Of a stretch of 64,000 bases of DNA, positions 1,348 to 60,335 are shown piece by piece (position 1 is the first letter of the stretch; every line of letters begins with the position of its first letter). The stretch comes from Fundicoccus culcitae. Lineage in GTDB: Bacteria > Bacillota > Bacilli > Lactobacillales > Aerococcaceae. The DNA is taken from positions 2,418,001 through 2,482,000 of the forward strand of contig NZ_CP102453.1 of the NCBI RefSeq assembly GCF_024661895.1, given 5' to 3'. Made by a program: the position numbers and the translations under genes. The notes beneath the pieces were generated by a model. That model was not told the DNA's origin and ran no database searches. It saw only the letters and a list, made by a program, of their open reading frames with translations.

Positions 1348-1668
1348 TGGTGGGAGTAGAAGTGTTTTGATTGGGTGACAGTTTAACTTCTGGGTGCTTA
1401 GAAGTAGAAGTGATTGGGTGACGGTTTAACTTCTGAGGTGGTAGAAGTATAAGTGATTTGGTGACGGTTTAACTTCTGAGTTGGTAGAAGTATAAGTGAT
1501 TTGGTGACGGTTTAACTTCTGAGTTGGTAGAAGTATAAGTGATTCGCTAACGCTTTAACTTCTGAGGTGGTAGAAGTATAAGTGATTCACCAACACTTTA
1601 ACTTCTGAGTTGGTAGAAGTATAAGTGATTCGATAACGCTTTAACTTCTGGGTTGTTAGAAGTATATA
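1348..1668. repeat. Tandem palindromic repeat family A (43-bp unit)
   Basis: About seven tandem units of 43 bp. Each contains the inverted repeat ACTTCT-N8-AGAAGT, with arms at 1386 and 1429 and so on. Units differ mainly in the linker. Related units recur at about 12,410-12,440 and 12,850-13,010. The array lies upstream of the gnd promoter. No coding potential is evident. Confidence 0.85.
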
Positions 1669-1689
1669 TGTTCATCTAATCACTAAGTC

Positions 1690-1985
1690 TAGTGATAGCT
1701 GCTTACTTTTGCATAGACACCCATAGCGTTGGATGTCAACCCTAATTTCCACTAAAAATTGGGAAATGCCGGCTTTCATTTTCTCGGGAAGTCCTCCAAA
1801 CGCATTTGCCGGATTACATCAAGAATCGACGTCCGGCAAATTAGGACAAATGACGAAAATTATCGCAATTGACTTGTCATCCACTTCCCGCTTAGGTTCA
1901 CGCACACAACAACTGCCCGAATATGTGTGCGCTGGTGCAGCGTAAATGAGAAATGCCGGTAATCCACTTCCCGCTTACGTTAGCC
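1690..1985. repeat. Composite dispersed repeat, copy 1 (about 300 bp)
   Basis: A non-coding block containing GCCGG-type inverted repeats and a CGCACACA/TGTGTGCG hairpin. Nearly the same order of segments recurs at 12,470-12,785 and 13,035-13,385, always flanked by family A units on the left and family B units on the right. Whole segments, not only single hairpins, have therefore been copied. Confidence 0.75.
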
Positions 1986-2345
1986 CGCCAAATGAATCGC
2001 GGTTTGTCGTTCACTCTAGTAATGCCCGCCAAATGAATCGCGGTTTGTCGTTCACTCTAGTAATGCCCGCCAAATGAATCGCGGTTTGTCGTTCACTCTA
2101 GTAATGCCCGCCAAATGAATCGCGGTTTGTCGTTCACTCTAGTAATGCCCGCCAAATGAGTCACGGTTTGTCGTTCACTCTAGTAATGCCCGCCAAATGA
2201 GCCCCGGTTTGTCGTTCACTCTAGTAATGCCCGCCAAATGAGCCCCGGTTTGTCGTTCACTCTAGTAATGCCCGCCAAATGAGTCACGGTTTGTCGGCCG
2301 CTCTAGTAATGCCCGCCAAATGAATAACGGTTTGGCGGACACCCC
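1981..2345. repeat. Tandem palindromic repeat family B (41-bp unit)
   Basis: Eight to nine tandem 41-bp units, each starting GCCCGCCAAATGA and ending with TTTGTCG or TTTGGCG. The unit is an inverted repeat CGCCAAA...TTTGGCG in its least decayed form (last unit, about 2308-2340). The same family recurs near 12.8, 13.4, 24.7, 25.1 and 60.25 kb. Non-coding. Confidence 0.85.
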
Positions 2346-2406
2346 CCTAATAACCCCACTAAATATGTCAAGATATGTCCGTGACAGCTCACCCACACCA
2401 ATAACC

Positions 2407-2438
2407 CCGCTTAAAGTGATAACCATCACTTTAAGCGG
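2407..2438 (-). terminator. Strong hairpin at the 3' end of the maoC/acd operon
   Basis: A perfect 14-bp stem (CCGCTTAAAGTGAT and its complement) with a 4-base loop, directly after the maoC-like stop codon. Only a poor T run follows, so it may act as a terminator or as a 3'-end stabiliser. Confidence 0.6.
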
Positions 2439-2453
2439 AGTGTTTAAATCTAG

Positions 2454-2972
2454 TTATGAATCGGACTTGACTTGATGCGGTGTGGGATCTTCGTAATACA
2501 TCACAATCTTAGTTGTCAAATACATTAGTTGTAAATCAGCATCGTTTTTTACATCCCATTCGACCGTTACAATGGCTTGATAGGGCTTTGATTTGGATGG
2601 TCGAATATCAAGTATCTTAAACTGAGGTTGGATGATATCACCGGGGCGGGTTGGGTTAGGCCAAGATAAATCAACCATGGCGCCAATCATACCGTTCTCC
2701 ATCTGAAATGTTCGAACGAAAAGTCCCATTGTGATGGCTGCCGTATGCCAACCGCTAGCGATTAAGCCACCGAATTGTCGCTTGTTAGCGACCTCTTCAT
2801 CCACATGATAAAATTGCGGGTCATACATTTGGGCGAACTCGATAATATCTTCTTTGCTGATCGCATAAGACCCAGATTGATAGACATCACCAACCACAAG
2901 ATCCTTTAATTGCAAACGATAACTATTGCTAACTTTAAATTTATCTTCAACCGAACATAATTCTCGAAGCAT
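2454..2972 (-). CDS. MaoC-family hot-dog enoyl-CoA hydratase/dehydratase
   Basis: A 172-residue protein of the MaoC/R-hydratase hot-dog fold. The hydratase signature is clear: YDPQFYHVDEE followed by FGGLIASGWHT, holding the Asp and His expected to activate water. Enzymes of this type hydrate trans-2-enoyl-CoA to (R)-3-hydroxyacyl-CoA. Its start codon overlaps the stop of the upstream acyl-CoA dehydrogenase gene (TAATG), so the two are translationally coupled. The context suggests acyl-CoA breakdown, complementing the crotonase encoded on the other side of the LysR gene. The exact substrate and stereochemistry cannot be read from sequence. Confidence 0.85.
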   Translation of the reverse strand: MLRELCSVEDKFKVSNSYRLQLKDLVVGDVYQSGSYAISKEDIIEFAQMYDPQFYHVDEEVANKRQFGGLIASGWHTAAITMGLFVRTFQMENGMIGAMVDLSWPNPTRPGDIIQPQFKILDIRPSKSKPYQAIVTVEWDVKNDADLQLMYLTTKIVMYYEDPTPHQVKSDS

Positions 2973-4177
2973 TACACAAAAGCACCAATGCCAGTTAATT
3001 CACGGCTCACGATAAGAGCATTCACTTCATGGGTTCCTTCGTAAGTATAGATGGCTTCAGCATCAGCAAAGAAGCGCATAACATCCGTTTCTAACGTGAT
3101 TCCATTACCACCGCAAACTTCACGAGCTAAAGCAACCGTTTCTCTCATGTTTAAAGAGTTGTGCATTTTAGCCAAGGCTGAGTTAAGCATTAACTCACGA
3201 CCTTCTTCTTGCAATTGGGCGATCCGAACAGAGTAGCCAATATTGGCAACGACGTTTGCTTGCATACGAGATAATTTTTCTTGAACAAGTTGGAAGCTAG
3301 CGATGCTCTTACCGAATTGTTCTCTTTGTTTAACATATTTTAAGGCAGCAACAAAAGCACCAGCTGAAATTCCCATGGCAATATGGGCAACATCGGCACG
3401 TGTGCGGACTAAAATACGCGAAACATCGCGGAAACCATTGATATTTTCTAAACGGTCGGCTTCTGGGACAACAACGTCTTTCATCACAATGTGACCATTA
3501 CGAATCGCACGCAAAGAGCCTTTGTGTGGAATTGGATCAGCGGAATAACCTTCAGCACCTTTTCTAACAATAAAACATTTAATCCGATTATCTTCCACAT
3601 CACGGGCAAAAATAGGAATAACATCCGCTGTATCTGCGCCACCAATCCAGCGTTTTTCACCATTAAGAATCCAGTTGTTGCCTTCACGACGCGCAGAAGT
3701 AGCAAGTCCACCCGCTATATCTGAACCATGATCTGGCTCAGTTAATCCAAAACAACCTTGCCATTCAAATGAAGCTAATTTTGGTGCAAACTCTTCGATT
3801 TGTCTTTCGTTACCCCCAAGAAGAATGGTGTTATAACATAGACCGCCATGTACCGTATAGAAAGTAGCGATTGAAGCATCGAAACGCGCAAGTTCTAGGT
3901 AAAGAAAAGCCGTATATAATTCCCGTGGTTTGCGTTCACCTTCACGCCCCACATATAATTTAGGGTTGTTCATAATCCCCACATCAGTAACTTTTTTGAA
4001 TTCTGCAAAAGGAAAATCGGCTTTTTCCCAATAGTCAGTAATCACCGGTCTTACATGCGTTTCTAATGCTTCACGTACTTCTTGAAGAACCTCTACTTCT
4101 CCGTCAGTAAGTCCTTCTGCGTAACCATATAAATCTTCTGGGTATAATTCTTTGACTAAATCATTTTTTGATACCAT
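2972..4177 (-). CDS. Acyl-CoA dehydrogenase, glutaryl-CoA dehydrogenase-like
   Basis: A 401-residue FAD-dependent acyl-CoA dehydrogenase (alpha-helical N domain, beta middle domain, helical C domain). Visible features are FGLTEPDHGSD in the flavin/substrate loop, REQFGKSIASFQLVQ in the C domain, and TYEGTHEVNALIVSRELTG, which carries the catalytic Glu and closely resembles glutaryl-CoA dehydrogenases. It introduces the 2,3 double bond into a CoA thioester and needs electron-transfer flavoprotein as acceptor. ETF genes are not in the window. It leads a two-gene operon with maoC, divergent from the LysR gene, with a cre-like site just after its -10. Substrate uncertain: glutaryl- or a short-chain acyl-CoA. 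Confidence 0.9.
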   Translation of the reverse strand: MVSKNDLVKELYPEDLYGYAEGLTDGEVEVLQEVREALETHVRPVITDYWEKADFPFAEFKKVTDVGIMNNPKLYVGREGERKPRELYTAFLYLELARFDASIATFYTVHGGLCYNTILLGGNERQIEEFAPKLASFEWQGCFGLTEPDHGSDIAGGLATSARREGNNWILNGEKRWIGGADTADVIPIFARDVEDNRIKCFIVRKGAEGYSADPIPHKGSLRAIRNGHIVMKDVVVPEADRLENINGFRDVSRILVRTRADVAHIAMGISAGAFVAALKYVKQREQFGKSIASFQLVQEKLSRMQANVVANIGYSVRIAQLQEEGRELMLNSALAKMHNSLNMRETVALAREVCGGNGITLETDVMRFFADAEAIYTYEGTHEVNALIVSRELTGIGAFV

Positions 4178-4207
4178 GAAATTTTAACCTCTTTCTTTGA
4201 TGTTTTC

Positions 4208-4222
4208 TCTAAGCGCTTACAA
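4208..4222 (-). promoter_or_regulatory. cre-like CcpA site before the acyl-CoA dehydrogenase gene
   Basis: Minus-strand TTGTAAGCGCTTAGA matches the catabolite-responsive element consensus WTGNAARCGNWWWCA at all but one position. It lies just downstream of a TACAAT -10 (4228-4233), a position typical of CcpA road-block repression. Confidence 0.65.
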
Positions 4223-4276
4223 GAGGTATTGTACAATTTTAAATTTATTTCGACCACTTATTAAAATTTATTAAAA

Positions 4277-4295
4277 CTATTAGCTGAACTAATAG
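4277..4295. promoter_or_regulatory. LysR-type operator in the acd/lysR divergent region
   Basis: CTATTAGCTGAACTAATAG is a 19-bp inverted repeat with 7-bp arms. It contains the LysR box T-N11-A (TTAGCTGAACTAA) and overlaps the -35 of the lysR promoter, as expected for autorepression. A close relative sits at 5467-5485. Confidence 0.65.
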
Positions 4296-4321
4296 ACATT
4301 TAAAAACAGATTATATATACT
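4293..4321 (+). promoter_or_regulatory. Promoter of the LysR regulator gene
   Basis: TAGACA (4293-4298), 17-bp spacer, TATACT (4316-4321), followed by AAAGGAG and ATG at 4355. Confidence 0.65.
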
Positions 4322-4354
4322 GTTATTAATATCAATAAAGGAGTTCGCTGCAAT

Positions 4355-12359: not shown

Positions 12360-13590
12360 GCCAAATTAACTCGGTAAATGAAGAATGTGTTGGTGTTTGG
12401 CCAACGGTTTAACTTCTGGGGTGGTAGAAGTAGAAGTGTTTATCAAATTACGCGGTTTAACGATAGCTGACCTATTACGCTAGGTAACAACTCAACCCTA
12501 ATTTCCACTAAATTTGGGAAATGCCGGCTTTCATTTTCTCGGGAAGTCCTTCAAACACACTTGCCGGACGTCATCAAGAATCGACGTCCGGCAAATTAGG
12601 ATAAATGATGAAAATTATCGCAATTGACTTGTTATCCACTTCCCGCTTAGGTTCACGCACACAACAACTGCCCTAATATGTGTGCGCTCCCCATCACGCA
12701 CACAACAAATGCTCCAATATGTGTGCGCTGGTGCAGGGCAAGTGAGAAATGCCGGTTATCCACTTCCCGCTTACGTTAGCCCGCCAAATGAATCCCGGTT
12801 TGTCGTTCACTATAGAAATGCTCGCCAAATGAGCTATGGTTTGTCGTTCAGCCAACGCTTTTACTTCTGAGGTGGTAGAAGTATAAGTGTTCAGCCAACG
12901 CTTTAACTTCTGAGGTGATAGAAGTATAAGTGTTCAGCCAACGCTTTAACTTCTGGGGTGGTAGAAGTATAAGTGATTCGCTAACGCTTTAACTTCTGAG
13001 TTGGTAGAAGTATATATGTTCATCTAATCACTCGGTTTAGTGATAGCTGCTTACTTTTGCATAGACACCCATAGCGTTGGATGTCAACCCAACCCTAATT
13101 GCCACTAAATTTGGGAAATGCCGGCTTTCATTTTCTTGGGAAGTCCTCCAAACACATTTGCCGGACTTCATTAAGAATCGACGTCCGGCAAATTAGGATA
13201 AATGATGAAAATTATTGTAATTGACTTGTTATCCACTTCCCGCTTAGGTTCACGCACACAACAACTGCCCTAATATGTGTGCGCTCCCCATCACGCACAC
13301 AACAAATGCTTCAATATGTGTGCGCTGGTGCAGCGTAAGTGAGAAATGCCGGTTCTTCACTTCCCACTTATGTTAGCCCGCCAAATGAGTCCCGGTTTGG
13401 CGTTCACTTTAGTAATGCCCGCCAAATGAGCTACGGTTTTGGCGTTCACTTTAGTAATGCCCGCCAAATGAGTCCCGGTTTGGCGGCCATTTTAGTAATG
13501 CCCGCCAAATGAATCCCGGTTTGTCTTTCACTTAAGTAATGCTCGCCAAATGAGCCCCGATTTGGCGGGCACACCCCTCCCACCACCTTA
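12360..13590. repeat. Intergenic mosaic of palindromic repeat families A, B, H and composite blocks
   Basis: A 1.2-kb gap between convergent genes with no credible gene. Order: one family A unit (about 12,405-12,440), composite block copy 2 (12,470-12,785) with two CACGCACACA hairpins 41 bp apart (12,654 and 12,695; family H), one or two B units, four A units of 43 bp (12,850-13,015), composite block copy 3 (13,035-13,385), then five B units of 41 bp (13,375-13,585). The order resembles that at 1,350-2,345. Confidence 0.8.
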
Positions 13591-20039: not shown

Positions 20040-20640
20040 GAAAATGCCAAGAAACCCCTCAAAGGCGGACGTCAATCTAAGCTGACGACCGCCTTTTAAG
20101 CTTGCCGGACGTCGATGGGAAACGAAAGCCGGCAAAACGGAGAAAAAGCCTTGACCCTCTGAATTGCCGGACGACAATTCAAGCTGACGTCCGCCTTTTA
20201 AGCTTGCCGGACGACGATGGGAAACGAAAGCCGGCAAATCGGAGAAAACGTCTTGACCCTCTCAAATGCCGGACGTCGATTCAATCTGACGTCCGCCAAC
20301 TAACTTTGCCGGACGACAATTCAAGTTGACGTCCGCCTTTTGACTTTGCCGGACGTCGAAGGAAAACGAAAGCCGGCAAATCGATGAAAATACATCGACT
20401 CTCCGAAATGCCGGACGACAATTCAAGCTGACGTCCGCCAACTAACTTTGCCGGACGACAATGGGAAACGAAATCCGGCAAATCGGTGAAAAAGCAACGA
20501 CACTCCAAAATGCCGGACGACAATTCAAGCTGACGTCCGCCTTTTATGCTTGCCGGACGACGATGGGAAACGAAAGCCGGCAAATCGGAGAAAACATCTT
20601 GACCCTCTCAAATGCCGGACGACGGACGGTTAGTGGGAAG
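20040..20640. repeat. Tandem palindromic repeat family C (40 + 62 bp composite)
   Basis: Ten or so GCCGGACG motifs spaced alternately about 40 and 62 bp (20,104, 20,166, 20,206, 20,268, 20,308, 20,348, 20,411, 20,451 and on). Short units pair GGACG with CGTCC, long units pair GCCGG with CCGGC. It lies between convergent genes. Frames read through it are artefacts of the periodicity. Confidence 0.8.
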
Positions 20641-21440
20641 TGAGTTATCGTCAGATTATGATAGACCACCTTTGGAATGGAAGAAATCCACAAAAATTAT
20701 TAGGCAAATGCTTGATCAAGTCATTACACTGTTAGCAGTGGCCAGAATAATCATTTTAAACTGACGATTTCTGAAAAAATCTCAAATTGAGATGATTCAA
20801 CTAAGAAAAACAGCCTTTTATCACATTGATGCATCGCAAACAACCGCTCGTTAACTTCTCGCTTACTCCTAACCGCCAGAGGGAAGTCTGAGAGGCGGAT
20901 TGGCACTCCCAACCGCCAGAGAGAAGTCTGAGAGGCGGATTGGCACTCCCAACCGCCAGAGAGAAGTCTGAGAGGCGGATTGGCGCCCCCAACCGCCAGA
21001 GGAAATCCTGAGAGGCGGACGGGAGAGAAAAAGGTACCTTATCAATTTGACGATCTTTCACTTCCCGCTTGTCATGAGGAAAAATCTGAATGACAATGGG
21101 AGGCTTTATTGTCATGAGAAAAAATCTGAGTGACAATGAGAGGCTTTATTGTCATGAAAAAAAATCTGAATGACAATGGGAGGCTTTATTGTCATGAGAA
21201 AAAATCTGAATGACAATGGGCGTGCTTATTGTCATGAGAAAAAATCTGAGTGACAATGAGAGGCTTTATTGTCATGAGAAAAAATCTGAGTGACAATGAG
21301 CGGTTTTATTGTCATAAGGAAGTAAGCGCGAAAGCCGGTAAACCACCGTAAATCCATCGACTATCCGAAATGCCGGACGACAATTCAAGCTGACGTCCGC
21401 CAACTAACTTTGCCGGACGTCGTCGTAAAATGACCTCCGG
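20641..21440. repeat. Repeat families D and E arrays plus a family C remnant
   Basis: 20,641-20,865 holds a decayed block similar to 40,745-40,960 (ATGATAGACCACC..., isolated GCAGTGGCCAG). 20,871-21,020 has four exact 40-bp units with CCGCC...GGCGG hairpins (starts 20,873, 20,913, 20,953, 20,993; family D). 21,071-21,330 has seven exact 40-bp units with TTGTCAT...TGACAA (21,071, 21,111, 21,151 and so on; family E). A last C-type unit lies at 21,340-21,440. No gene seen. Confidence 0.85.
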
Positions 21441-24674: not shown

Positions 24675-25470
24675 CTATGACTCAGCCCCCGCCAAATGGA
24701 GTGTGGATTGGCTGTCACCCAGGTTACGCCCGCCAAATGGCAGCTGGATTGGCGGGCACTCAGGTTGCACCTGCCAAATGGCAGCTGGATTGGCGGTCAC
24801 CCAAGTTGCGCCCGCCAAATGAAGTGTGGTTTGGCTGTCACTCAGGCTGCGCCCGCCAAATGGCAAGTTGTTTGGCGGTTACTAGTAAATGGGAAGTGGC
24901 AGACAAGTCATTAATGATAATTTTTGTTAAATATCTTAATTTGCCGGACGACAATTACAGGTGAGATCCGGCAAGCCTGTTTGGCGGACTTCCCGCGAAA
25001 ACGACGTCCGGAAACCCGTCGCACTAAGGCATAAAAGCCAAATGTGGGAAGACGATTTCAGCTGTGTTCCGCCAAATGGCAGCTGGATTGGCTGTCACCC
25101 AAGTTGCGCCCGCCAAATGAAGTGTGGTTTGGCTGTCACTCAGGCTGCGCCCGCCAAATGGCAAGTTGTTTGGCGGGCGCTAGTAAATGGGAAGTGGCAG
25201 ACAAGTCATTAATGATAATTTTCGTTAAATATCTTAATTTGCCGGACGACAATTACAGGTGAGATCCGGCAAGTTAATTTGGCGGACTTCCTGCGAAAAC
25301 GACGACCGGCAACCTGTCGCACTAAGGCATAAAAGCCAAATGTGGGAGGACGATTTCAGCTGTGTTCCGCCAAATGGCAGCTGGTTTGGCTGTCACCCAA
25401 GTTGCGCCCGCCAAATGAAGCCCGGATTGGCGGTAACTCAATTCGGACCTATCAGTTGGAGTTAGTAGGA
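24675..25470. repeat. Family B/C repeat block with an internal tandem duplication of about 298 bp
   Basis: CGCCAAATGG-type units with TTTGGCGG partners (24,690-24,880 and again 25,070-25,180, 25,370-25,440) alternate with GCCGGACGAC units. The segment starting TTAATGATAA at about 24,911 recurs at about 25,209 with few differences, so a whole block was duplicated. Overlapping frames here are repeat artefacts. Confidence 0.8.
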
Positions 25471-25660
25471 GTAGCCTTTCACTGTTTTCAATAGGTATTT
25501 ATCAAACGCATATAGCGTTTCGTGATTTCCCTATACGCGTTTGTCAAAAGAGAATAAAAATAATAGCTGGCGAGGAAGTATGTGGGCTTCGCCAGCAAAT
25601 TAAATAGGTGGCGAGGAAGTATGTGGGCTTCGCCAGCAAACCAAGAAATTCGTGACGAAA
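25471..25660. repeat. Family I remnant and family J pair (41-bp unit)
   Basis: Around 25,505-25,545 an ACGCATATA...TATACGCGT hairpin of family I occurs singly. At 25,569 and 25,610 two 41-bp units GGCGAGGAAG...CTTCGCCAGC form TGGCGA/TCGCCA hairpins (family J). Non-coding. Confidence 0.7.
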
Positions 25661-27649: not shown

Positions 27650-28110
27650 TTGGTGGCTGGATGAGGTGTGGGTGGGTTATGGTGTTATACGATTTGGGTT
27701 TGTGTTGCAATCAACAAGGGTAAGGTGACACGGATTGTCAGCAGGAGGTGTAGGAGCCTGAAAAACTGGCGTGGGATGGAGAAGCTTGCTTTCATCATCA
27801 TTCGGGGAAAGGAATTGGGGAATATGATGCGGTTTGTCAAATTAACGGCCATGAAACACCTGATTTCATGACCGAATAGCTTTATTGTTAGTCTGTTTTA
27901 TGGTCATACGTTTCCTGCTTACGTTATGTGGAATATACTGGTCGAGTTCGTTCCACTTACTCAGTTATGTGGAATATTCAGACAGAGTTAGATCCACTTA
28001 CTCAGTTATGTGGAATATACTGGTCGAGTTTGTTCCACTTACTCAGCAAATGTGACAAATGAGTGGTCACGCAATCACTTACCAACCCAACTCCACCCCC
28101 AACTCCACTA
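27650..28110. repeat. Intergenic region with families F and G repeats
   Basis: No credible gene. 27,840-27,910 has decayed family F sequence (CATGAAA...TTTCATGACCG). At 27,928, 27,969 and 28,010 three units of exactly 41 bp carry GTGGAA...TTCCAC inverted repeats (family G). The 180 bases before 27,840 show nothing recognisable. Confidence 0.7.
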
Positions 28111-37916: not shown

Positions 37917-38216
37917 GTGGGGTGGTGGCGACCCCTGCCTCCCTCCTCGCCATCAATTCGATTAGTTGGCGAAGCTCATCATCCTCTTCGCCATCAATTC
38001 AATTAGATGGCGCAGCTCCCAAACGGTTTCGCCATCAATTAAAATGATCCTTATTAGATGGACTAATCTTAGTTTGACGGTCAATCACTTGTTTTCTCAC
38101 TTACGACGGCGCACACATATTCGGGCAGTTGTTGTGAGCGTGATGGTGAGCGCACACATATTGGAGCAGTTGTTGTGAGCGCGAGCCCAGGCGCACGCAG
38201 GAAATGTCGCTTCTTG
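37917..38216. repeat. Family J and H palindromic repeats left of IS66
   Basis: Three 41-bp units TCGCCATCAATT...TGGCGA start at 37,947, 37,988 and 38,029 (family J). Two 41-bp units GCGCACACATATT...TTGTTGTGAGCG start at 38,109 and 38,150 (family H). A further H hairpin was split by the IS66 insertion. No gene. Confidence 0.8.
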
Positions 38217-38309
38217 GTACGCGCCTAATAGTGAGGTATCTATGAATAAAAAAGTGGACATGCTAAACTAACCCAGACAGATAAACAATCTGGGTTAGGT
38301 GGTTTGATA

Positions 38310-39965
38310 TCAGGCTGCTTTGTTATAACCAGCATCACCAATTACCTTTTTAAGCCCACACGCTTCTTGGATCTCATCGGTCCAAGGCAGATAGCGGCTT
38401 AAATCTGCGTTTGTTATATCGATGATGTTCGGTAGATGGGTAAGTAAGTATTCAATATATTGCTTCCCATCCACGCGATGCAGCTTAGCCGTTTCAATCA
38501 GTGAGAGAAGAACAGCCCCCGCTTGGGCACCATCAAAAGTCGCCGCAAATGGATAGTTCTTTCTCCCCATGACCACAGTTCGTATGGCGCGTTCAGCAGC
38601 GTTATTACTTAACTCTAGACGTCCATCGTTTAGAACCGTATAGAATCGTGTCCGATGATTTTGGGCATAGACAAGCGCTTCACTAAATTTACCAATGGGA
38701 TTACCATTAGCGGCACATTGGTCGATAAAAGTGAATAGCTCATTAAATAATTTTTTGAGAATCCTCTGTCTCTTTTTAAGTCGATCCACAATCGATAATG
38801 ACGCCCATTCACGCTCTTTTTCAAAGATTTTATTAATCATTTCCATGATTTCGCTAACCGGCGTCTCCCCTTGTCCCTTGATAACCACATTGGCTTCGTG
38901 AAATTTTCGCCGTAAATGTGCCCAACAAGCAGCGAGTTCGAGGTCGTCAGAGGAGTCACTCGCATTTCGATAGACCACATACATATCACAGTGGATGGTC
39001 CCGTGGAAATTGCCAATGACATCTTTAAACAAGTTGCCACTACGCCCATCGTGATGTGAAAAACAAATGACTTTATTTTCCACGTGTTTTGAACTGTGAA
39101 GCACCCAGTAATACGTTCGGCTCTTCTTGCTTTCAAGGACACGATAAGTAGTTTCATCCGCATGAACAATATCTTGTTTTTGAAGTTCCGCATGAAAGGC
39201 TTGGAAAATAAACCCTAAATAATATTTGCTGGCATCAATATGCCACCGACAAATAGATGTGCGGGATAAAGGGAACCCTAATTTACGCCAGTGTTGTTCT
39301 TGGCGGTGAGCGGGTACCTTAAGTTCATATTTTTGATAAACAGTTTCGGCAATCATCGAAGCAGAACCAAAACTATTCTTAAAGGGTTGCGCGGGTAATT
39401 TCGATTTAACAAATTGATCGGTATCTTTTTGAGACGAGCAGTGGTCGCATTTATAGCTGTGTTGACGATGATTAATACATTCTAAAGTAGCTGGGATAAA
39501 TTTGAGTTCACGCGTGATACTCGCTAACCCGACGTACGATAGAGAATGATGACAATCACGACACACCTGTTCCTCTTCAGATAAATAATAATTGATATCC
39601 TTTTGAGGATATTGATCTAGAATCTCAGTTTTTCTTCCGACGGATTTTTTTCGGCGGGTGTAGCCTTTTACTTTTGTTTTTTTTTCATCATCTGACTCGT
39701 TAGAACTCGTGTCACCTGATGATCCGTTCGTTGCCTCACCCGTGTCAGCAGCGGCCTGTCCATTAGGAACATGTGTTTCTTTCTTACGGCCAAACAATAA
39801 TTTTTGGAAGTGTAACATTTTTTGTGTCATTTCTTCTAATTGAAGGGCTAACGCATCGGTCTTATCATTGGCTACTTTTAAGTCTTGTTGGAGATGTTTA
39901 ATTTCCAAGGCTTGTTCTTCAATAATTTTATTTTTTTCTAAGATTTCTAATTCTTCTTTTGTCAT
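38310..39965 (-). CDS. tnpC: IS66 transposase (TnpC)
   Basis: A 551-residue DDE transposase. The N-terminal coiled coil (about residues 5-50) is followed by a Gly/Ser/Asp-rich linker and a zinc finger CRDCHHSL...CDHCSS. Catalytic residues lie in DIVHADETTYRVL (D), GTIHCDMYVVYRN (D) and NNAAERAIRTVVMGRKNYPF (E). The start at 39965 is 8 bases after AGAGG; an upstream in-frame GTG overlaps that RBS. Full length for the family. Confidence 0.95.
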   Translation of the reverse strand: MTKEELEILEKNKIIEEQALEIKHLQQDLKVANDKTDALALQLEEMTQKMLHFQKLLFGRKKETHVPNGQAAADTGEATNGSSGDTSSNESDDEKKTKVKGYTRRKKSVGRKTEILDQYPQKDINYYLSEEEQVCRDCHHSLSYVGLASITRELKFIPATLECINHRQHSYKCDHCSSQKDTDQFVKSKLPAQPFKNSFGSASMIAETVYQKYELKVPAHRQEQHWRKLGFPLSRTSICRWHIDASKYYLGFIFQAFHAELQKQDIVHADETTYRVLESKKSRTYYWVLHSSKHVENKVICFSHHDGRSGNLFKDVIGNFHGTIHCDMYVVYRNASDSSDDLELAACWAHLRRKFHEANVVIKGQGETPVSEIMEMINKIFEKEREWASLSIVDRLKKRQRILKKLFNELFTFIDQCAANGNPIGKFSEALVYAQNHRTRFYTVLNDGRLELSNNAAERAIRTVVMGRKNYPFAATFDGAQAGAVLLSLIETAKLHRVDGKQYIEYLLTHLPNIIDITNADLSRYLPWTDEIQEACGLKKVIGDAGYNKAA

Positions 39966-40033
39966 GAATATCACCTCTTTTCACTAAGTTTATTGTACCA
40001 TATTCATGGTATATTTACTAGTAAATATAGCGA

Positions 40034-40378
40034 TTAATCGTTGAAAATAAAAGAAGATTTTAGCGGTGGATTCAAGCTATCTCCACGTAATAATCGTTCG
40101 ATTTGAAAGAGAGAAATTTCCATAAATTTTGGTTCTGTCGTTGGCCATTGGAAGACGCCGCCATCTATACGATAAATCAGCTCAATAAAACGCTGACCAT
40201 CCCAATAGATAATTCGTAAGACCTTTTTCTTACTATTACAAAATAGATAAGCAGCTGACTTATCGCGTACAAAAACGGCACTCGATTGAATCAAGGCTAA
40301 GAGTCGTTGAAGTGCTTGGTTTCCTGGAGAGAATTGAGGCATCAAGTAAAGTGTTTCTGGTACAGTAAAATCGATCAT
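40034..40378 (-). CDS. tnpB: IS66 accessory protein TnpB (Orf2)
   Basis: A 114-residue protein of the IS66 Orf2 family, required with TnpC for transposition but of unknown mechanism. KSAAYLFCNSKKKVLRIIYWDGQRFIELIYRID contains the conserved LxLFxxxxxxxKxLxWDGxGF-like core. ATG at 40378 lies 8 bases after AAGGAG; ATG 40384 is too close. It precedes tnpC. Confidence 0.92.
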   Translation of the reverse strand: MIDFTVPETLYLMPQFSPGNQALQRLLALIQSSAVFVRDKSAAYLFCNSKKKVLRIIYWDGQRFIELIYRIDGGVFQWPTTEPKFMEISLFQIERLLRGDSLNPPLKSSFIFND

Positions 40379-40468
40379 TATCATCGCTCCTTATTGTTGA
40401 TGATTTCATCATACTAAACTAGGATAATTTTAAGAAGATACCTCATTATTAGGCGCGTACGCTTCTTG

Positions 40469-41295
40469 TGTGCGTGAACCTAAGCGGGAAATGTGTGACC
40501 ATAAAATAAACTACAAATTAGGCTATTCGGTCATGAAATTAGGTATTTGGTGATTGATTAGATTTATTTAACGTTTGCTCACTTCCTGCTTACCCCCAAC
40601 CGCCAGAGAGCGAGATGAGAGGCGGATGGCAAGTCCCAACCGCCAGAGAGCGATGTGAGAGGCGGATGGCAAGTCCCAACCGCCAGAGAGTGACGTGAGA
40701 GGCGGATGGCAAGTCCCAACCGCCAGAGAGTGACGTGAGAGGCGGATGGTTGTAAGTGACTGCCAGTCTATGATAGTCCACCTAAAGAAGAAATTCACAA
40801 TAATTATTTGGTAATTGCTTAATCTAGCCACTGCTAAGAGAGCAGTGACCCGCAAAGTGCTATTCTGGCCACTGCTATCAGAGCAGTGACCAGATAAATT
40901 ATTTTTAACTAGAGATTCCTGCAAAAATTTCAAATTGTGATGATCCATTGAAGAAAAGCAGCTTTTTATAGCCTTGATTTATCGCAATCAATAACCGCTC
41001 GTTGTAAGCTGGAAATGAAAGACAGTCGAATAAAGCTAATCGGTCACTAAGCACTTGATTTCGTGACCGAATAAAGCTAATCGGTCATCAAATACCTGAT
41101 TTCGTGACCGAATAAAGCTAATCGGTCATCAAATACCTAATTTCATGACCGATTAGCCTTATTGTAGCCTATTTTACGGTAATACCCATCCCACTTACAC
41201 CAAATTTCTGCTAAAAGCCAGCAATCAAATCAGCCGGCACAGCCAACCACCTTCTATACCACCAATCAACCCCACCACCCCACACATTCCTTCCC
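40469..41295. repeat. Palindromic repeat families D, K and F right of IS66
   Basis: Four 40-bp D units (CCGCCAGAGAG...GGCGG) begin at 40,600, 40,640, 40,680 and 40,720. Two 41-bp K units (CACTGCT...AGCAGTG) begin at 40,829 and 40,870. Three 41-bp F units (CGGTCA...TGACCG) begin at 41,041, 41,082 and 41,123. The order D then K-like block resembles 20.65-21.0 kb. No gene is evident. Confidence 0.85.
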
Positions 41296-42689: not shown

Positions 42690-44630
42690 GGGTTTTTAGC
42701 GGGAGAGGAGGAAGGTTGGCGTTATGGCGATTCTCATCCTATTCAGAGAGTTACCGGAACAATAATTCAGAGGGAAGCCGGCGTTTGGTAGAACTATATC
42801 CGAGGAAAGCCGGTGTTTGCCGGACGTCAATTCACCGAGACGACCGGCAACCGCGAATGGCGGACTTCCCGCAACAACGACGTCCGGCAAGTTAAGAAAT
42901 AAGCAGGAAAAAGTTGCAACATGGTAGTAAATGAAGAAATGGCGGACGTCGATACACCGGGACGACCGTCAACCGCGAATGCCGGCCTTCCTGCAACAAC
43001 GACGTCCGGCAAGTTGGGAAATAAGCTGAATATTGCTGAAGCCCAGTAGTAAATGAAGAAATGGCGGACGTCAATACACCGGGACGACCGGCAACCGCAA
43101 ATGGCGGACTTCCCGCAACAACGACGTCCGGCAAGTTAAGAAATAAGCTGAAAAAAGTTGAAACACAGTAGCAAATGAAGAAATGGCGGACGTCAATTCG
43201 CCGGGACGACCGGCAACCGCGAATGGCGGACTTCCCGCAAAAACGACGTCCGGCAAGTTGGGAAATAAACTGGAAAAAGCTGAATCACAGTATCAAATGA
43301 AGAAATGGCGGACGTCAATACACCAGGACGACCGGCAACCGCGAATGGCGGACTTCCCGTAAAAACGACGTCCGGCAAGTTGGGGAATAAGCAGGAAATA
43401 GTTGAAACATAGTTGCAAATGAAGAAATGGCGGACGTCAATTCACCGGGACGACCGGCAACCGCGAATGGCGGACTTCCCGCAAAAACGACGTCCGGCAA
43501 GTTGGGAAATAAGCTGAAAATTGCTGAAGCGCAGTTGTAAATGAAGAAATGGCGGACGTCAATACACCGGGACGACCGTCAACCGCGAATGCCGGCCTTC
43601 CCGCAAATACGACGTCCGGCAAGTTAAGAAATAAGCTGAAAAAAGTTGAAACACAGCAGCAAATGAAGAAATGGCGGACGTCAATTCACCGGGACGACCG
43701 GCAACCGCAAATGGCGGCCATCCCGCAAAAACGACGTCCGGCAAGTTAAGAAATAAGCAGAAAAAAGTTGCAACATGGTAGTAAATGAAGAAATGGCGGA
43801 CGTCGATTCACCGGGACGACCGTCAACCGTCAATGCCGGCCATCCCACAACAACGACGTCCGGCAAGTTGGGGAATAAGCAGAAAATTGCTGAAGCACAG
43901 TAGCAAATGAAGAAATGGCGGACGTCGATTCACCGGGACGACCGTCAACCGCGAATGCCGGCCTTCCCGCAACAACGACGTCCGGCAAGTTGGGAAATAA
44001 ACTGGAAAAAGTTGAAGCACAGTAGCAAATGAAGAAATGGCGGACGTCGATTCACCGGGACGACCGGCAACCGCGAATGCCGGCCTTCCCGCAACAACGA
44101 CGTCCGGCAAGTTAAGAAATAAGCAGGAAAAAGTTGCAACATGGTAGTAAATGAAGAAATGGCGGACGTCGATTCACCGGGACGACCGTCAACCGTCAAT
44201 GCCGGCCATCCCACAACAACGACGTCCGGCAAGTTGGGGAATAAGCAGGAAAAAGTTGAAACACAGCAGCAAATGAAGAAATGGCGGACGTCGATTCACT
44301 GGGACGACCGGCAACCGCGAATGGCGGACGTCCCGCAACAACGACGTCCGGCAAGTTGGGGAATAAGCTGAATATTGCTGAAACACAGTAGTAAATGAAG
44401 AAATGGCGGACGTCAATACACCGGGACGACCGGCAACCGCAAATGGCGGACGTCCCGCAACAACGACGTCCGGCAAGTTGGGGAATAAGCTGAATATTGC
44501 TGAATCACAGTAGCAAATGAAGAAATGGCGGACGTCAATTCGCCGGGACGTCCGTCAACCGTCAATTCACCTAGCCGCCCGCCCCCCCAACCGCACTCCC
44601 AACCCCCGCACTCCCAACCCCATTCACCAC
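42690..44630. repeat. 122-bp higher-order tandem array (family C related)
   Basis: About 14 copies of a 122-bp unit, ATGGCGGACGTC...GACGTCCGGCAAG, with starts stepping by 122 (for example 43,071, 43,193, 43,315, 43,437, 43,559, 43,681). Each unit holds three inverted-repeat elements, so 122 is close to three 40.7-bp modules. Copies differ at a few sites, such as GCGGACTTCC versus CCGGCCTTCC. The unit is not a multiple of three and frames through it carry no gene. Confidence 0.9.
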
Positions 44631-52934: not shown

Positions 52935-53670
52935 GACTGTTAAGGTTTTTTGCTGAACGCGTATATGGAAATCGTAAAAGGCTATACGCGATTGCTGAAC
53001 GCGTATATGGAAATCGTAAAAGGCTATACGCGTTTTCCCCACCCCCACAAAACACCAAAAAAGGCGCCCCAGCGGCGCCTTTCACTATCACCACTTCACA
53101 TAAATTGACCACACATTAAGGCCATGAAGCTTTTAGGTAAGGGAGTATATGGAAAATATGAAACGCGTATATGGAAATCGTAAAAGGCTATATGCGATTG
53201 CTGAACGCGTATATGGAAATCCTAAAAGGCTATACGCGATTGCTGAACGCGTATATGGAAATCACAAAAGGCTATACGCGTTTTCCCCACCCCCACAAAA
53301 ACACCAAAAAAGGCGCCCTAGCGGCGCCTTTCACTATCACCACTTCACATAAATTGACCACACATTAAGGCCATGAAGCTTTTAGGTAAGGGAGTATATG
53401 GAAAATATGAAACGCGTATATGGAAATCGTAAAAGGCCATATGCGATTGCCAAACGCGTATATGGAAATCACAAAAGGCTATACGCGATTGCCAAACGCG
53501 TATATGGAAATCACAAAAGGCTATACGCGATTGCTGAACGCGTATATGGAAATCACAAAAGGCTATATGCGTTTGCTGAACGCGTATATGGAAACCACAA
53601 AAGGCTATACGCGTTTTCCCCACCCCCACAAAACACCAAAAAAGGCGCCCCAGCGGCGCCTTTCACCATC
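52935..53670. repeat. Family I palindromic repeats (42-bp unit) within a 250-bp tandem duplication
   Basis: Units AACGCGTATATGG...GGCTATACGCG recur every 42 bp (52,957, 52,999, and longer runs at 53,170-53,280 and 53,410-53,610), each an ACGCGTATA/TATACGCGT hairpin. A 250-bp block, including a copy of the PHP gene's last 25 bp and its terminator (about 53,031-53,160), is repeated at 53,281-53,410. Confidence 0.85.
53636..53664 (-). terminator. Terminator of the PHP operon (also duplicated at about 53,065 and 53,315)
   Basis: GGCGCC-GCTG-GGCGCC stem followed on the minus strand by TTTTTTGG, directly after the stop codon at 53672. Confidence 0.85.
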
Positions 53671-56657: not shown

Positions 56658-56669
56658 TATGAACCCCTC

Positions 56670-57641
56670 CTATTTCCCTGCGTAAACATGGTGTCTAGCG
56701 ACTTTATACGAAACGTCACTACCGATCAAATAGTTGGGCACTTCAGACCGTGAAATAAATGACTGCAATTGACTACCATTCGGCAAGTCCAAGGTCACAA
56801 TCGCATAGTGACCAATCAACATAATATCCGCAATGGTCGCGCTGTGTTCATATTCACCGGCTTGTCCTAAGACAATATCTTCCGGACGTGAAGCCACCAC
56901 TTCGCCACTTTCAGACTGATCAAAGTTCATCGTTCCAATAAATGACGCCACATATTGTGTTTCAGGGTTGTCATAAATATCATTTGGTGTCCCAACTTGC
57001 GCAATGACCCCTTTATCCATAACCACAATGCGGTCAGAAATTGACATGGCTTCTTCTTGGTCATGCGTGACAAAGACAATTGTTAAATCCAAATCTTGGC
57101 GAATCCGTTTAATTTCAGACCGCATTTCATGACGAATCTTCGCATCCAAAGCCGAGAAAGGCTCGTCTAACAATAAGACCGCTGGTTTTAACAACAAACT
57201 CCGCGCAATCGCGACCCGTTGTTGTTGCCCACCTGATAATTGGGAAGGAAACTTCTCTTCAACCCCCGGCATGCGCACCAAATCCAAAATAGTCGCCACC
57301 TGCTTTTTAATATCCGCTTTCGACACTTTACGCAATTTCAAGCCAAAGGCTAAATTCTCAAACACAGTCATATGTGGCCACAAGTTATACGATTGAAACA
57401 CCATCCCGGTCGGACGGTTTTCAGGCGCCAAGTTCGTCACATCTTGACCATCAATCAAAATCTCGCCCGCCGTCACCTTGTTAAAGCCACCAATCGCGCG
57501 CATAATCGTCGTTTTCCCACAGCCCGACGGCCCCAAGAGTGTCAAAATCTCCCCTTGATTAATGGACAAATTAATATCCTTAACGCCGTCGCCGTTATCA
57601 TAGATGACACTTAAATTATTTATTTGAACTTTTTCAACCAT
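56670..57641 (-). CDS. ABC importer ATPase (PotA/UgpC-like)
   Basis: A 323-residue ATPase with Walker A GPSGCGKTTIMRAI, VFQSYNLWPHMTVFENL, signature LSGGQQQRVAIARSLLLKP, Walker B VLLLDEPFSALD and H-loop THDQEEAM. A TOBE domain lies C-terminal (SRPEDIVLG). ATG at 57641 follows AAGGAG, with the dispersed GATATTTAT motif filling the RBS spacer. Gap of 12 bases to the permease downstream. Confidence 0.92.
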   Translation of the reverse strand: MVEKVQINNLSVIYDNGDGVKDINLSINQGEILTLLGPSGCGKTTIMRAIGGFNKVTAGEILIDGQDVTNLAPENRPTGMVFQSYNLWPHMTVFENLAFGLKLRKVSKADIKKQVATILDLVRMPGVEEKFPSQLSGGQQQRVAIARSLLLKPAVLLLDEPFSALDAKIRHEMRSEIKRIRQDLDLTIVFVTHDQEEAMSISDRIVVMDKGVIAQVGTPNDIYDNPETQYVASFIGTMNFDQSESGEVVASRPEDIVLGQAGEYEHSATIADIMLIGHYAIVTLDLPNGSQLQSFISRSEVPNYLIGSDVSYKVARHHVYAGK

Positions 57642-57654
57642 AATAAATATCTCC

Positions 57655-58485
57655 TTATTTCATTTTAAAGCCTTGGCCTAAGGCATCGGCCGACAGGTAT
57701 TTTCTAAATAACCAAATCACAATGATCGATGGCACCATTAAGATAAGTGAGAAGACAGCCCCCGCTTGCAATGGATAATCCAAGATAATCCCATACATTG
57801 CCGTTGCCATCGTATTAATATCCGGGAAGCCAACTAACAGCGTTCCTTGCGCTTCTTCCATGGAACCTAAAAAGGTGTAAACCGATGCGACTGCAATCCC
57901 AGGCATGGCCAAAGGTAAGGTTATTTTCCGAAAGACCATAAAAGGGGAGGCCCCCACATCACGGGCTGCTTCTTCTTGTTGTCTGTGGACCGATCTAAAA
58001 GAACCGGCCGGTAACCAAATCATAAACATCAACGTATTGATTAAATGGATAATAATAACGCCCGGCAAAGTCCCCATTAAATTCAAACGATAAAAAATGA
58101 TGGCCATAGCCACATAAATACCCATTTTCGGAAACGCATTGGAAATTAAAAAGGTGAACATGAAAAACTTGCGTCCGACAAAGTTATACCGCGAAATCGC
58201 ATAAGCGGCCGGCACGCCAACGATCAATGAAATAATGGTCGTCAAAGTCGCCACCACAAAGGAGGTAATAATCGACTCAACTAACTGATCTTGACTGAAA
58301 ATAAATTCCCACCAACGCAAACCAAATTCTTGGGGAATCACATTGGGATAACGATACGTATCGCCAAAAGCGATCATGATGTTATTGACTAAAGGAGTAT
58401 AGAAAAAGAGTAAAAAAATAGCAAAAATCACAAAGTTCCAAAATTTACGCGGCCCCACAGCGTGGTAATAACGTTTCGGTGACAT
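57655..58485 (-). CDS. ABC importer permease B (PotC/UgpE-like)
   Basis: A 276-residue permease with six helices. The EAA loop reads QQEEAARDVGASPFMVFRKI. ATG at 58485 follows AAGGAGGAG; a longer in-frame version begins inside the intergenic hairpin region and lacks an RBS. Partner of the permease at 55818. Confidence 0.9.
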   Translation of the reverse strand: MSPKRYYHAVGPRKFWNFVIFAIFLLFFYTPLVNNIMIAFGDTYRYPNVIPQEFGLRWWEFIFSQDQLVESIITSFVVATLTTIISLIVGVPAAYAISRYNFVGRKFFMFTFLISNAFPKMGIYVAMAIIFYRLNLMGTLPGVIIIHLINTLMFMIWLPAGSFRSVHRQQEEAARDVGASPFMVFRKITLPLAMPGIAVASVYTFLGSMEEAQGTLLVGFPDINTMATAMYGIILDYPLQAGAVFSLILMVPSIIVIWLFRKYLSADALGQGFKMK

Positions 58486-58629
58486 ACAAACTCCTCCTTG
58501 TAAAGTTTTATCAATTACAAAAGCCGAACGTTTCACCATATCGTGTACTATCGCGAGAAGGACAGTATGTTTTCACGATAAGATAGAACGTTCAGCTAAT
58601 GTAGAGTAGCAGTGATATTTAGTTAACGA
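58486..58629 (-). other. Intercistronic gap between binding protein and permease genes
   Basis: 144 bases holding the dispersed motif GCAGTGATATTTAG (58,606-58,619) and imperfect inverted repeats (GAACGTTC...GAAACGTTC, ATCGTG...CACGAT) that could form an mRNA stem protecting the binding-protein transcript. No U tract, so full termination is unlikely. Confidence 0.4.
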
Positions 58630-59781
58630 TTATTGTAAAGTTCCGATTTCATTGTCCCAACGTTCGTTAAGTAAACCACCTAGTTCACCTAAGCTTGAAC
58701 GACGGAAGTTAGTCACATCAAGGCCTTCTAATAACGAAGAGTTCGGGCTATCGAAGCTAGAAGAATCGACTAAAGGAATTGCAGCCATGTTGTCTAACAA
58801 GATTTGTTGTGCTTCGTCCGTTAACATGAAGTCCATAACGGCATGCGCACCTTCAACGTTTGAACCGATGGTAGGAATCGCAAAAGCATTCAAGCTTCCA
58901 GTGAAACCAGGATCGATTTGAGCAATTTTAGTTGTTTCAGGTAAAATACCTTGGTTGATTTGAGAAATAGCCATATCAGCCCAAGCAGGAATCATGTCTA
59001 CTTGTTGGTCAATTAGTAAATCAAGTGTTCCTTGGTTTTTGTTAGGATAAACGGTTGAACCACCAGATTGGTATAAGAATGGGTGTAACTCTTCTAATAA
59101 AGCAAAACCTTGATCCCATTGTTCCATGTTAGCTTCGTCAGAAGACGTTAAAGCCGCTTCATCTAAGAAGTTGTAAACAGCTGTCACAACAAATGAGCTA
59201 CCAGCACCACCAGAACCTGGTGTGTTGTAAGCGAAACGACCTGGATTTTCTTTAATCCATGTGTATAATTCATCAGCCGTTGTTGGAACATTTTCAACAC
59301 GTTCCTCGTCATAAGCTAAAACAACCGTTGTTCCACGGTAAGGAGCTAAGTATTCAGCATTTTCTGCCACTTGCGCATCCACGCGTTCTAAGTTAGGTAC
59401 TAAGGCTGTATCGACAGGAACGAACATTTCATCAACCGTCATATCGGTTGTGTAGGAAGGAATATCATCAGCACCTAATTCGATAATGTCATAGTTTGTG
59501 CCAGTTTCGCCAGCTAAAGTAGCTGCCACTAAACGATCACGTAACCCTTGTGCACCAGAACCAGATAAAATGAACTCAACTTCTAAGTCATATAATTCAC
59601 CATAAGATGAATTGTCAAACGCTTTTTCTAACTCTTCGAAGACCATACGAACATTGTCAGATCCACCTGTCCATAAAGTAACCGTCGTTTTTTCTTGCGC
59701 AGACACAGTTGCTGTTGCTAATGAACCCGCTAAAGCCGCAACCCCAGCCAAGCCCATCAATTTTTTAAGTGCTTTTTTCAT
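58630..59781 (-). CDS. ABC importer substrate-binding protein (SBP_bac_1/6 class)
   Basis: A 383-residue exported binding protein. Mature start VSA|QEKTTVTLWTGGSDNVRM, then LSGSGAQGLRDRLVAATLAG, NTPGSGGAGSSFVVTAVYNF and IPTIGSNVEGAHAVMDFML. No lipobox Cys. First gene of the importer-GDPD-PHP operon. The ligand is unknown; linked genes and the Pho-like box suggest a phosphate ester such as a glycerophosphodiester. Confidence 0.87.
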   Translation of the reverse strand: MKKALKKLMGLAGVAALAGSLATATVSAQEKTTVTLWTGGSDNVRMVFEELEKAFDNSSYGELYDLEVEFILSGSGAQGLRDRLVAATLAGETGTNYDIIELGADDIPSYTTDMTVDEMFVPVDTALVPNLERVDAQVAENAEYLAPYRGTTVVLAYDEERVENVPTTADELYTWIKENPGRFAYNTPGSGGAGSSFVVTAVYNFLDEAALTSSDEANMEQWDQGFALLEELHPFLYQSGGSTVYPNKNQGTLDLLIDQQVDMIPAWADMAISQINQGILPETTKIAQIDPGFTGSLNAFAIPTIGSNVEGAHAVMDFMLTDEAQQILLDNMAAIPLVDSSSFDSPNSSLLEGLDVTNFRRSSLGELGGLLNERWDNEIGTLQ

Positions 59782-59833
59782 TTGCTACCTCCAAAATAAT
59801 TGTTTTTTTACAGCACCTATCGTACCACCCCAT

Positions 59834-59872
59834 TGTTAATTTCCAGTCAAATTCCCGTAAATATTACGTAAA
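59834..59872 (-). promoter_or_regulatory. Pho-box-like array of four hexamers before the importer-GDPD-PHP operon
   Basis: Reading towards the gene: TTTACG, TTTACG, TTGACT and TTAACA, each separated by exactly 5 bases (11-bp period). This is the layout of PhoP boxes (TTHAYA repeats) in Bacillus. It ends 53 bases before the ATG, close to where a -35 would lie. Confidence 0.65.
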
Positions 59873-59939
59873 TCCAGCACTTTGATTGTAAAGTTTTTGT
59901 ATACCTCTCGAATTCACTATTTTCCAAATAAATATCTCT

Positions 59940-60335
59940 GCTAGCTTCTAAGCTGGCTGCGTGCTGCTTTTCGGGAACGGCTGTGCTTTCCGATATTGGT
60001 AGAAAAACAAGTCATCGCCAGTGACTGCGAGTGACGGGAAATGCTAAAAGGCGGACTTGGAATGGGGCGGACGACCGGCAATTTGAATTGGCGGACGTCC
60101 CACAAAAACGACGACCGGCAAGTGTGCTTAATAAGGTGTAAACGCCAAAAAACCGGACTTGGAATGATGGGGACGACCGGCAAGTTGAATTAGCGGACGT
60201 CCCACAAAAACGACGACCGGCAAGTGTTGGCAGTGATAGAATGAATCATAATGCCCGCCAAACCAGCTTCCATTTGGCGATGTCTTCAACTCTGCCCGCC
60301 AAACGACCTTCCATTTGGCGAGTTTGTTTTGTCAT
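59940..60335. repeat. Family C and B palindromic repeats before the acetyltransferase gene
   Basis: Units GGACGACCGGCAA...GGCGGACGTCC recur between 60,050 and 60,230. Two 41-bp family B units (CCCGCCAAAC...TTTGGCGA) start at 60,254 and 60,295. The following bases to 60,500 contain a GGTGGCGA/CGCCACC J-like hairpin at about 60,408-60,440. No gene. Confidence 0.75.

Follow-up and report, generated by a model that had tools for sequence, protein, structure and literature searches.

Intergenic spacers of Fundicoccus culcitae carry tandem arrays of short palindromes that belong to about a dozen superfamilies and repeat mostly every 40 to 43 bp. They were noticed in a window of 64,000 nt (positions 2,418,001 to 2,482,000 of NZ_CP102453.1, the single contig of a 3.22-Mb genome), for which the original prediction had described palindrome arrays sharing a common period; this observation is real and holds genome-wide. 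On the joint reading that we prefer, to which we give a probability of about 0.58 from sequence comparison, the arrays are intergenic palindromic-repeat mosaics of the kind of bacterial interspersed mosaic elements (BIMEs) or BOX elements, with units mostly summing to 40 to 43 bp. An IS66-family transposase would have moved terminus-bounded segments in trans, and the arrays would expand and contract in place. The fixed period would reflect a constraint on duplex DNA that sets neighboring palindromes whole helical turns apart, usually four. The arms may then be half-sites for a dimeric DNA-binding protein, to which we put no name, with neighboring sites presented on one face of the helix.

Period counts were made with Tandem Repeats Finder (TRF), whose rows may overlap and hence do not equal separate arrays. 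Periods of 40 to 43 bp made up 44 of 115 rows, 25 of them at exactly 41 bp, in a first sample of 464 kb consisting of the window and 20 near-evenly spaced 20-kb stretches of the same genome. They made up 21/66 rows in another 20 near-evenly spaced stretches (400 kb), drawn after the phasing prediction considered below had been written. A period peak is thus seen in both own-genome samples and is absent from the sequence of relatives. Five relatives, sampled over 400 kb, gave one such row out of 13, and the 80 named loci (1.34 Mb) gave one out of 169. All eleven stem families of the original prediction were recovered at their sites and with their periods by TRF and in layouts of the window. Its single period stood in part: 40 to 43 bp is dominant, but units of 31, 51, 52, 62, 72, and 82 bp and, in one array, 47-bp steps also occur, and further TRF periods in the first sample include 31, 51, 62, 102, 122, and 142 bp. 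Array bases amounted to 8,944 of the 400,000 in the first 20 stretches, and none of the 50 merged arrays of window and stretches lay inside a kept open reading frame (ORF), frames made mostly of array having been dropped beforehand. Among same-family neighbors at most 160 bp apart in 668 kb, 327 of 366 were spaced 40 to 43 bp, 29 represented the 31-bp family, and 10 lay at other distances. Such pattern counts depend on families first recognized in the window, whereas the TRF period counts are independent of that. Yet another 20 stretches were picked for carrying the boundary motif (an IS66-type terminus; see below) and are a biased sample.

Each family keeps its own strict period: 43 bp for ACTTCT; 40 bp for CCGCC and TTGTCA; 41 bp for CGCCAAA, GTGGAA, CGCWCACA, TCGGTCA/TCTGTC/GGACAGAAT, TGGCGA, GCGCGA, and CGTCAGAT; 42 bp for CGCGTATA and TTATAGTA; and 31 bp for CGAACTA. 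Exact inverted pairs of 12 arm types showed the modal gap of their own family in 462 of 504 cases (668 kb, gaps of 0 to 45 allowed), a count whose CCGCC share also takes in some B palindromes. Linkers were nearly as strict (F, 68/69; I, 25/26; D, 37/39; A, 50/59), with the exception of CCGCC (36/68 modal), the short arm of which also matches B palindromes. Of the sets behind the period and identity figures, that of C includes B arrays and that of F doubles some arrays at a 2-bp offset, so identities are given for neither. Identity between arrays was 0.80 to 1.00 in the arms versus 0.41 to 0.62 in the loop cores of A, B, E, G, g, I, J, and L (about 0.41 to 0.42 in B and I, with few length changes), and loop cores were better conserved in D (0.84), H (0.74), and O (1.00). 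Spacer length is therefore kept while spacer sequence drifts in most families. In the B array at 1983-2334, 8 of the 9 units have TTTGTCG as their right arm, which makes for an imperfect stem. An alignment of 25 G units contained two-sided changes in 18 cells, and both this count and the covariation score exceeded all 500 shuffles and all slid controls (the G set used for alignment and identity includes TCTGTC-type arrays). The families had also been called unrelated. Just 5 of 136 family pairs (G-L, g-L, G-O, H-h, and g-J) beat all 200 shuffles, so that most show no sequence relation. Since period is inherited within a family, the independent count is the dozen or so superfamilies and not the number of arrays; the argument against independent slippage as the source of a single period remains good, but with that smaller number behind it.

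Unit number varies among composites that agree in their flanking modules. The same two flanking modules enclose two (L152), two (L104), three (L151), four (L138), or five (L102) F units, and three composites in the window hold one, two, and two. Linkers are alike within the displayed arrays (layouts), in contrast to the unique spacers of clustered regularly interspaced short palindromic repeats (CRISPRs). A CRISPR-like array, with a CGCACTC-ACGAG-GAGTGCG hairpin in its repeat and a period of 65 to 69 bp, lies elsewhere in the same genome (L099:16395-19963). In one F array (L103:2974-3139), a run of about 14 C in a linker gives a 49-bp step, a case of homopolymer slippage inside an array.

A 14-bp motif, CACTTCCCRCTTAC/GTAAGYGGGAAGTG, precedes or follows different arrays and equals the termini of an intact IS66-family element (group X, below). 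Allowing at most one mismatch, it occurs 154 times in this genome versus 0 to 4 times in each of 30 relatives (reversed-pattern control, 1 copy in the own genome); exact copies number 103 here, and none of 394 other genomes of the order has more than one. Exact 7-bp direct repeats flank 11 of 176 candidate inverted-terminus pairs (shuffled mean 0.28, maximum 2; as the candidates overlap, 176 does not count separate elements), and one further pair has an 8-bp target duplication. The 11 segments with exact 7-bp duplications are transposase-free and 191 to 693 bp long. The genome has nine IS66 transposase matches. Group X consists of two identical, intact 2,286-bp copies (L098:5594-7879 and L145:15159-17444) with termini GTAAGTGGGAAGTG...CACTTCCCGCTTAC, which are also found, with few mismatches, on mosaic junctions. 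The L098 copy encodes TnpC (PF03050, E 7e-75) and TnpB (PF05717, E 1.3e-16), and it is by these proteins that the group is filed under IS66. An 8-bp duplication is typical of IS66 and flanks 7/7 copies of groups Y and Z, whereas both group X copies deviate with 7 bp (GACGTCG and ATTGGTC), and the transposase-free segments likewise differ from these two other groups by their 7 bp. The first 112 bp of group X recur at 94% identity in L138:6770-6881, as expected of a deletion derivative; the other segments match X over only about 20 to 30 terminal bases. The group Z element of the window has termini different from those of group X, and group Y (L138:4190-6442, L168:393-2646, and L169:393-2646; termini GTAAGCGCCCAATA, 8-bp duplications) is a third IS66 group. 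A DDE_Tnp_1 search of the genome gave four matches.

The common enzyme acting in trans that the original prediction invoked is thus plausibly an IS66-family DDE transposase, given that its 14-bp termini bound the mosaics. Its transposition would explain the spread and mosaic growth of many families but leaves the period unaccounted for, because the H arrays (0/6 near a terminus), the P arrays (0/2), and 4 of 7 K clusters have no IS66 terminus within 250 bp and are periodic all the same (42 bp, 31 bp, and 40+62 or 40+82 bp). Within that distance of a terminus, biased stretches included, were 14 of 15 C, 12 of 12 D, 24 of 29 F, 7 of 8 G, and 4 of 4 O arrays; the terminus filter overlooked one terminus with three mismatches next to a J array.

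We inspected 21 insertions with a recognized target duplication, namely, 12 transposase-free segments, 2 copies of X, all 4 of Z, and all 3 of Y. Twelve cut a palindrome, four lay in array linkers, and five lay elsewhere. Most X-type sites in this set stem from the motif-chosen stretches, which favor mosaics; two insertions in L144 share near-identical flanks and are perhaps not independent, and one L151 segment encloses another. Joining the flanks restored the regular step (e.g., J, 41/41; D, 40/40; K, 62/40; F, 41/41; O, 41/41/41), indicating that at these sites the arrays are older than the insertions and served as targets. With most inspected insertions in palindromic repeats, the mosaics grow by nesting.

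As to the period itself, a free scan from 7 to 25 bp over 18 values, one per family or spacing type, gave 10.3 bp as the best-fitting divisor (R 0.906). Those off the main cluster (31, 51, 52, 62, and 82 bp) lie at most 0.061 turn from a whole number, with a chance probability of 5e-6 if all five are counted and 3e-4 for three. This clustering was noticed after the fact, so a prediction was written and new sequence was then drawn; new off-peak palindromic arrays of 31, 31, 51, and 72 bp (the last as 40+72 = 112) agreed with it. The count set aside in-ORF rows (33, 36, 57, and one 40 in a K array), a nonpalindromic 27-bp row, and multiples of 41 or 51. More telling than this count are comparisons within families. 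The N palindrome (ATAACTTC-16-GAAGTTAT) advances by 41 bp in L186:4674-5057 and by 51 to 52 bp in L186:9330-9680 and L098:17443-18451, and K units mostly measure 102 bp, once 112, and once 122. Folded as single-stranded DNA, twelve units gave weak hairpins (-2.5 to -7.6 kcal/mol), and two of them (E and H, each with an arm mismatch) did not fold into their own palindrome, which favors recognition of the arms in duplex DNA, probably by a dimeric protein. The whole-turn clustering of periods (31, 40-43, 51, 62, 72, and 82 bp) favors a face-of-helix constraint. The phased DNA-binding protein of the original prediction gains from the invariant spacer lengths, the whole-turn periods, and the 10-bp same-family steps, and loses by the exceptions described next.

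Several results weigh against the joint reading. Only 4 of the 6 new off-peak arrays agreed with the prediction; 33 and 47 (41+47 = 88) failed. Distances between neighbors of different families are unphased (74 distinct distances, R 0.107, p about 0.43). The clearest exception within families is a g/L array (L185:19290-20000), several steps of which are 47 bp (4.56 turns) instead of 41, and other same-family steps measure 27, 49 (the poly-C expansion), 76 (twice), and 132 bp. The half-site distance derived from the arm patterns ranges from 14 to 26 bp across families, so that one protein geometry does not fit all, and a search that went no further than transposases, reverse transcriptase, and recombinases found no binding protein. 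In the G alignment, 3 pairs changed on both sides versus 3.1 in shuffles, and pair types numbered 6 versus 5.7, these being the two measures on which relatedness has the smallest effect; in the I family, whose arms are nearly invariant and thus uninformative, two-sided changes are absent. As for dispersal, no IS66 terminus is near H (0/6) or P (0/2), F is near one in only 4 of 8 cases in the window and unbiased stretches, and the five nonarray insertions include 2 of the 3 group Y copies.

The period may instead have been inherited without any constraint, from a few ancestral arrays of about 41 bp that diverged by concerted evolution, with slippage or unequal exchange and no phasing function. 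Some families are indeed related (G, g, L, and O; H and h), period within a family is simply inherited, and spacings between families are unphased. Moreover, segmental tandem duplications spanning several arrays, of 298 bp (24773-25420) and 249 bp (52950-53529), show ordinary tandem duplication at work in array regions. The lack of detectable common sequence among most families, the drift of B and I spacers with few length changes, and the same-family changes of 10 or 20 bp in N and K, in spite of the 47-bp steps of L185, speak against this account, which we regard as possible but doubtful. The boldest form of the duplex constraint, offered only tentatively because we consider it unlikely, is a one-turn ruler for the palindromic arrays of this lineage: unit length would tend to change by whole turns (31, 41, 51, 62, 72, or 82 bp) whatever the sequence, because unrelated palindromes of many kinds would be acted on by a duplex-bound protein assembly or by an amplification that requires duplex sites synapsed on one face. 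IS66 would then spread and nest them. If true, this ruler would define a new, sequence-tolerant class of phased chromosomal repeat.

Arrays were found in 12 of the 39 spacers between convergent genes, in 11 of the 121 between codirectional genes, and in 3 of the 37 between divergent genes (p = 0.0009, with spacer length uncontrolled; gene context came from crude ORF calls after frames mostly of array were removed). In the account of pneumococcal BOX given in PMC3049150, such a convergent preference is read as tolerance of parasitic insertions; a topological role would fit as well. The preference for convergent gene ends could also point to a function at the RNA level, with transcribed arrays acting as terminators or stabilizing hairpins, and RNA folding gave z below -3 for 4 of 12 units. 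The other 8 have z between -0.9 and -1.6, no Rfam family was found in the window, the arrays lie beyond the ordinary terminator in the three loci inspected by eye (two in L102 and one in L103), and an RNA function gives no evident reason for a fixed linker length, all of which makes it improbable. Conserved arms with variable centers would likewise suit core sites of tyrosine recombinases, one recombinase per family, and N resembles a known phage recombinase site by eye. The N-to-known-site score was 24, though, where shuffled sites average 15.6 and reach 30, and the five phage-integrase-family matches here versus 2 to 19 in 25 relatives indicate no expansion of tyrosine recombinases, so that we hold this idea to be very improbable. 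Scarcely credible, and excluded at the level of the PF01797 profile, is a hairpin-specific single-strand transposase making the palindromes in trans, either a repetitive extragenic palindromic (REP)-associated tyrosine transposase (RAYT) or a Y1 enzyme of IS200/IS605, as the original prediction had suggested: REP/RAYT systems, as outlined in PMC3733652, typically have their palindromic repeats in intergenic mosaics, but the genome, rated 99% complete, has 0 Y1_Tnp (PF01797) matches in a search positive in 5 of 14 control genomes and 0 TnpB-type PF07282 matches, single-strand hairpins are weak or, in two units, do not form the palindrome, and the observed dispersal has target duplications and inverted termini.

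A reverse transcriptase was rejected as the amplifier, the group II introns of this genome having no wider link to arrays. Their four copies (L161-L164, e.g., L163:769-2651) are about 1.88 kb long and, where they can be compared, no less than 99.8% identical; a reverse-transcriptase frame of about 300 aa precedes a second, separate frame. Only one copy adjoins a B array. Among the relatives, G017 has one 42-bp array with 5-bp arms (L122). G010 belongs to the same family but to a different genus; in it, an IS66 gene with 34% identity to X ends 67 bp before one TACTTCCCGCTTAC copy on contig 8. This relative was considered as a second array host by way of TACTTCCCGCTTAC and was rejected, as the fetched stretches gave one weak repeat only, AT-rich, 42 bp in period, with 2.7 copies and imperfectly palindromic (L130:1904-2013). 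Window positions 40440-41200, the only stretch tried, gave no match on plasmids or phages.

Table 1. Palindrome arrays, IS66-type termini, and related features of the window
Feature	Positions	Strand	Basis or remark
A array (ACTTCT/AGAAGT), 7 x 43 bp	1368..1666	.	TRF, layout
IS66-type terminus (CACTTCCCGCTTAG) at junction to F palindrome	1882..1895	+	
IS66-type terminus (CACTTCCCGCTTAC) just 5' of B array	1965..1978	+	
B array (CGCCAAA), 8.6 x 41 bp	1983..2334	.	TRF
Two more composite copies: terminus, F units, terminus, B units, with A array between	12637..13571	+	TRF, layout
F (CGCACACA) pairs, 41 bp	near 12656 and 13253		
A array, 43 bp, between the two composites	12846-13022		TRF
B array (CGCCAAA), 41 bp	13376-13567		
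K array (CCGGACG; GGACG stem), spacings 40 + 62 bp	20054..20623	.	TRF
Segment with inverted IS66-type termini (GTTAGTGGGAAGTG ... AACTTCTCGCTTAC), between K and C arrays	20629..20866	.	no exact target duplication found
C array (CCGCC/GGCGG), 3.9 x 40 bp	20865..21019	.	TRF
IS66-type terminus overlapping D array start	21059..21072	+	
D array (TTGTCA/TGACAA), 6.2 x 40 bp	21069..21315	.	TRF, layout
B arrays (41 bp) in 298-bp segmental tandem duplication with K units	24688..25440	.	TRF, layout
B arrays, individual stretches, 41 bp	24688-24865 and 25069-25174		
Left-end type termini (GTAAATGGGAAGTG) within 298-bp duplication	24885 and 25183		
I array (TGGCGA/TCGCCA), 41 bp	25562..25640	.	TRF
E array (GTGGAA/TTCCAC), 3 x 41 bp	27923..28046	.	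TRF
I array, 41 bp	37947..38040	.	TRF
F units (CGCACACA), 41 bp, third one split by IS66 element	38108..38216 (array 38108-38196)	.	TRF
8-bp target duplication GCTTCTTG, left copy	38209..38216	+	
IS66-family element, group Z, termini GTACGCGCC..., in F palindrome	38217..40460	-	
Group Z genes	TnpC 38310-39974, TnpB 40034-40384		within 38217..40460
8-bp target duplication GCTTCTTG, right copy	40461..40468	+	
114-bp segment with IS66-type termini (CTAAGCGGGAAATG ... CACTTCCTGCTTAC), holds G-type palindrome	40480..40593	.	no exact target duplication
C array, 3.9 x 40 bp	40595..40749	.	TRF
Two CACTGCT/AGCAGTG palindromes, 41 bp apart	40829..40888	.	only two copies
Segment bounded by GTAAGCTGGAAATG ... 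CCCATCCCACTTAC, holds G array	41004..41198	.	no exact target duplication
G array (TCGGTCA/TGACCGA; CGGTCA stem), 3.1 x 41 bp	41027..41152	.	TRF, covariation
K array, unit 122 bp (spacings 40 + 82), 14.3 copies	42821..44561	.	TRF
Three H arrays (ACGCGTATA), 42 bp, in 249-bp segmental duplication	52950..53613	.	TRF; no IS66 terminus within 250 bp

Palindromic repeats between genes have been familiar for about four decades, and the cause of their unit length has rarely been testable. About a dozen families with a common period, drifting spacers of fixed length, and two families in versions that differ by 10 bp amount to a natural experiment on helical phasing. Identification of the IS66 partner, a transposon with relatives that contain palindromes and often insert into them, also allows a concrete, testable account of how the mosaics are built. 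Literature searches at the level of listings, with subscription papers mostly outside their coverage, returned neither an account of a single period across many palindrome families nor one of IS66-driven palindromic mosaics. Plasmid iterons have unrelated sequences and a period near whole helical turns because a protein binds one face. The unrelated sequences described here share a near-whole-turn period with them and differ in being chromosomal and palindromic, in spanning about four turns instead of two, and in having no Rep protein linked to them. RUP of pneumococcus is a miniature inverted-repeat transposable element (MITE) driven by an insertion sequence transposase. Like such MITEs, the segments are short and transposase-free and agree in termini and target duplications with an intact element that the genome also carries; unlike them, their interiors are largely palindromic arrays that are themselves insertion targets. 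BIMEs and REP arrays of Enterobacteria and Pseudomonas, as outlined in PMC3733652, resemble the arrays as inverted repeats in intergenic arrays and mosaics, and high-copy intergenic palindromes in arrays and mosaics are present here; the difference lies in the lack of a Y1/RAYT match in this genome. REPs also serve as targets of insertion sequences, and IS66 is outside the five families named for this in PMC1525189 (IS3, IS110, IS4, IS256, and IS5). BOX of Streptococcus pneumoniae and the BOX-type families of Streptococcus suis, as characterized in PMC3049150, share with the mosaics an intergenic location, central modules that vary in number between end modules, inverted termini, target duplications, nested insertions, several module types per genome, and over-representation between convergent genes. 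The likeness to BOX drawn here is one of architecture, with two differences: about a dozen palindromic module families take part, most with units of 40 to 43 bp, and the termini are those of an intact IS66 element identified in the genome.

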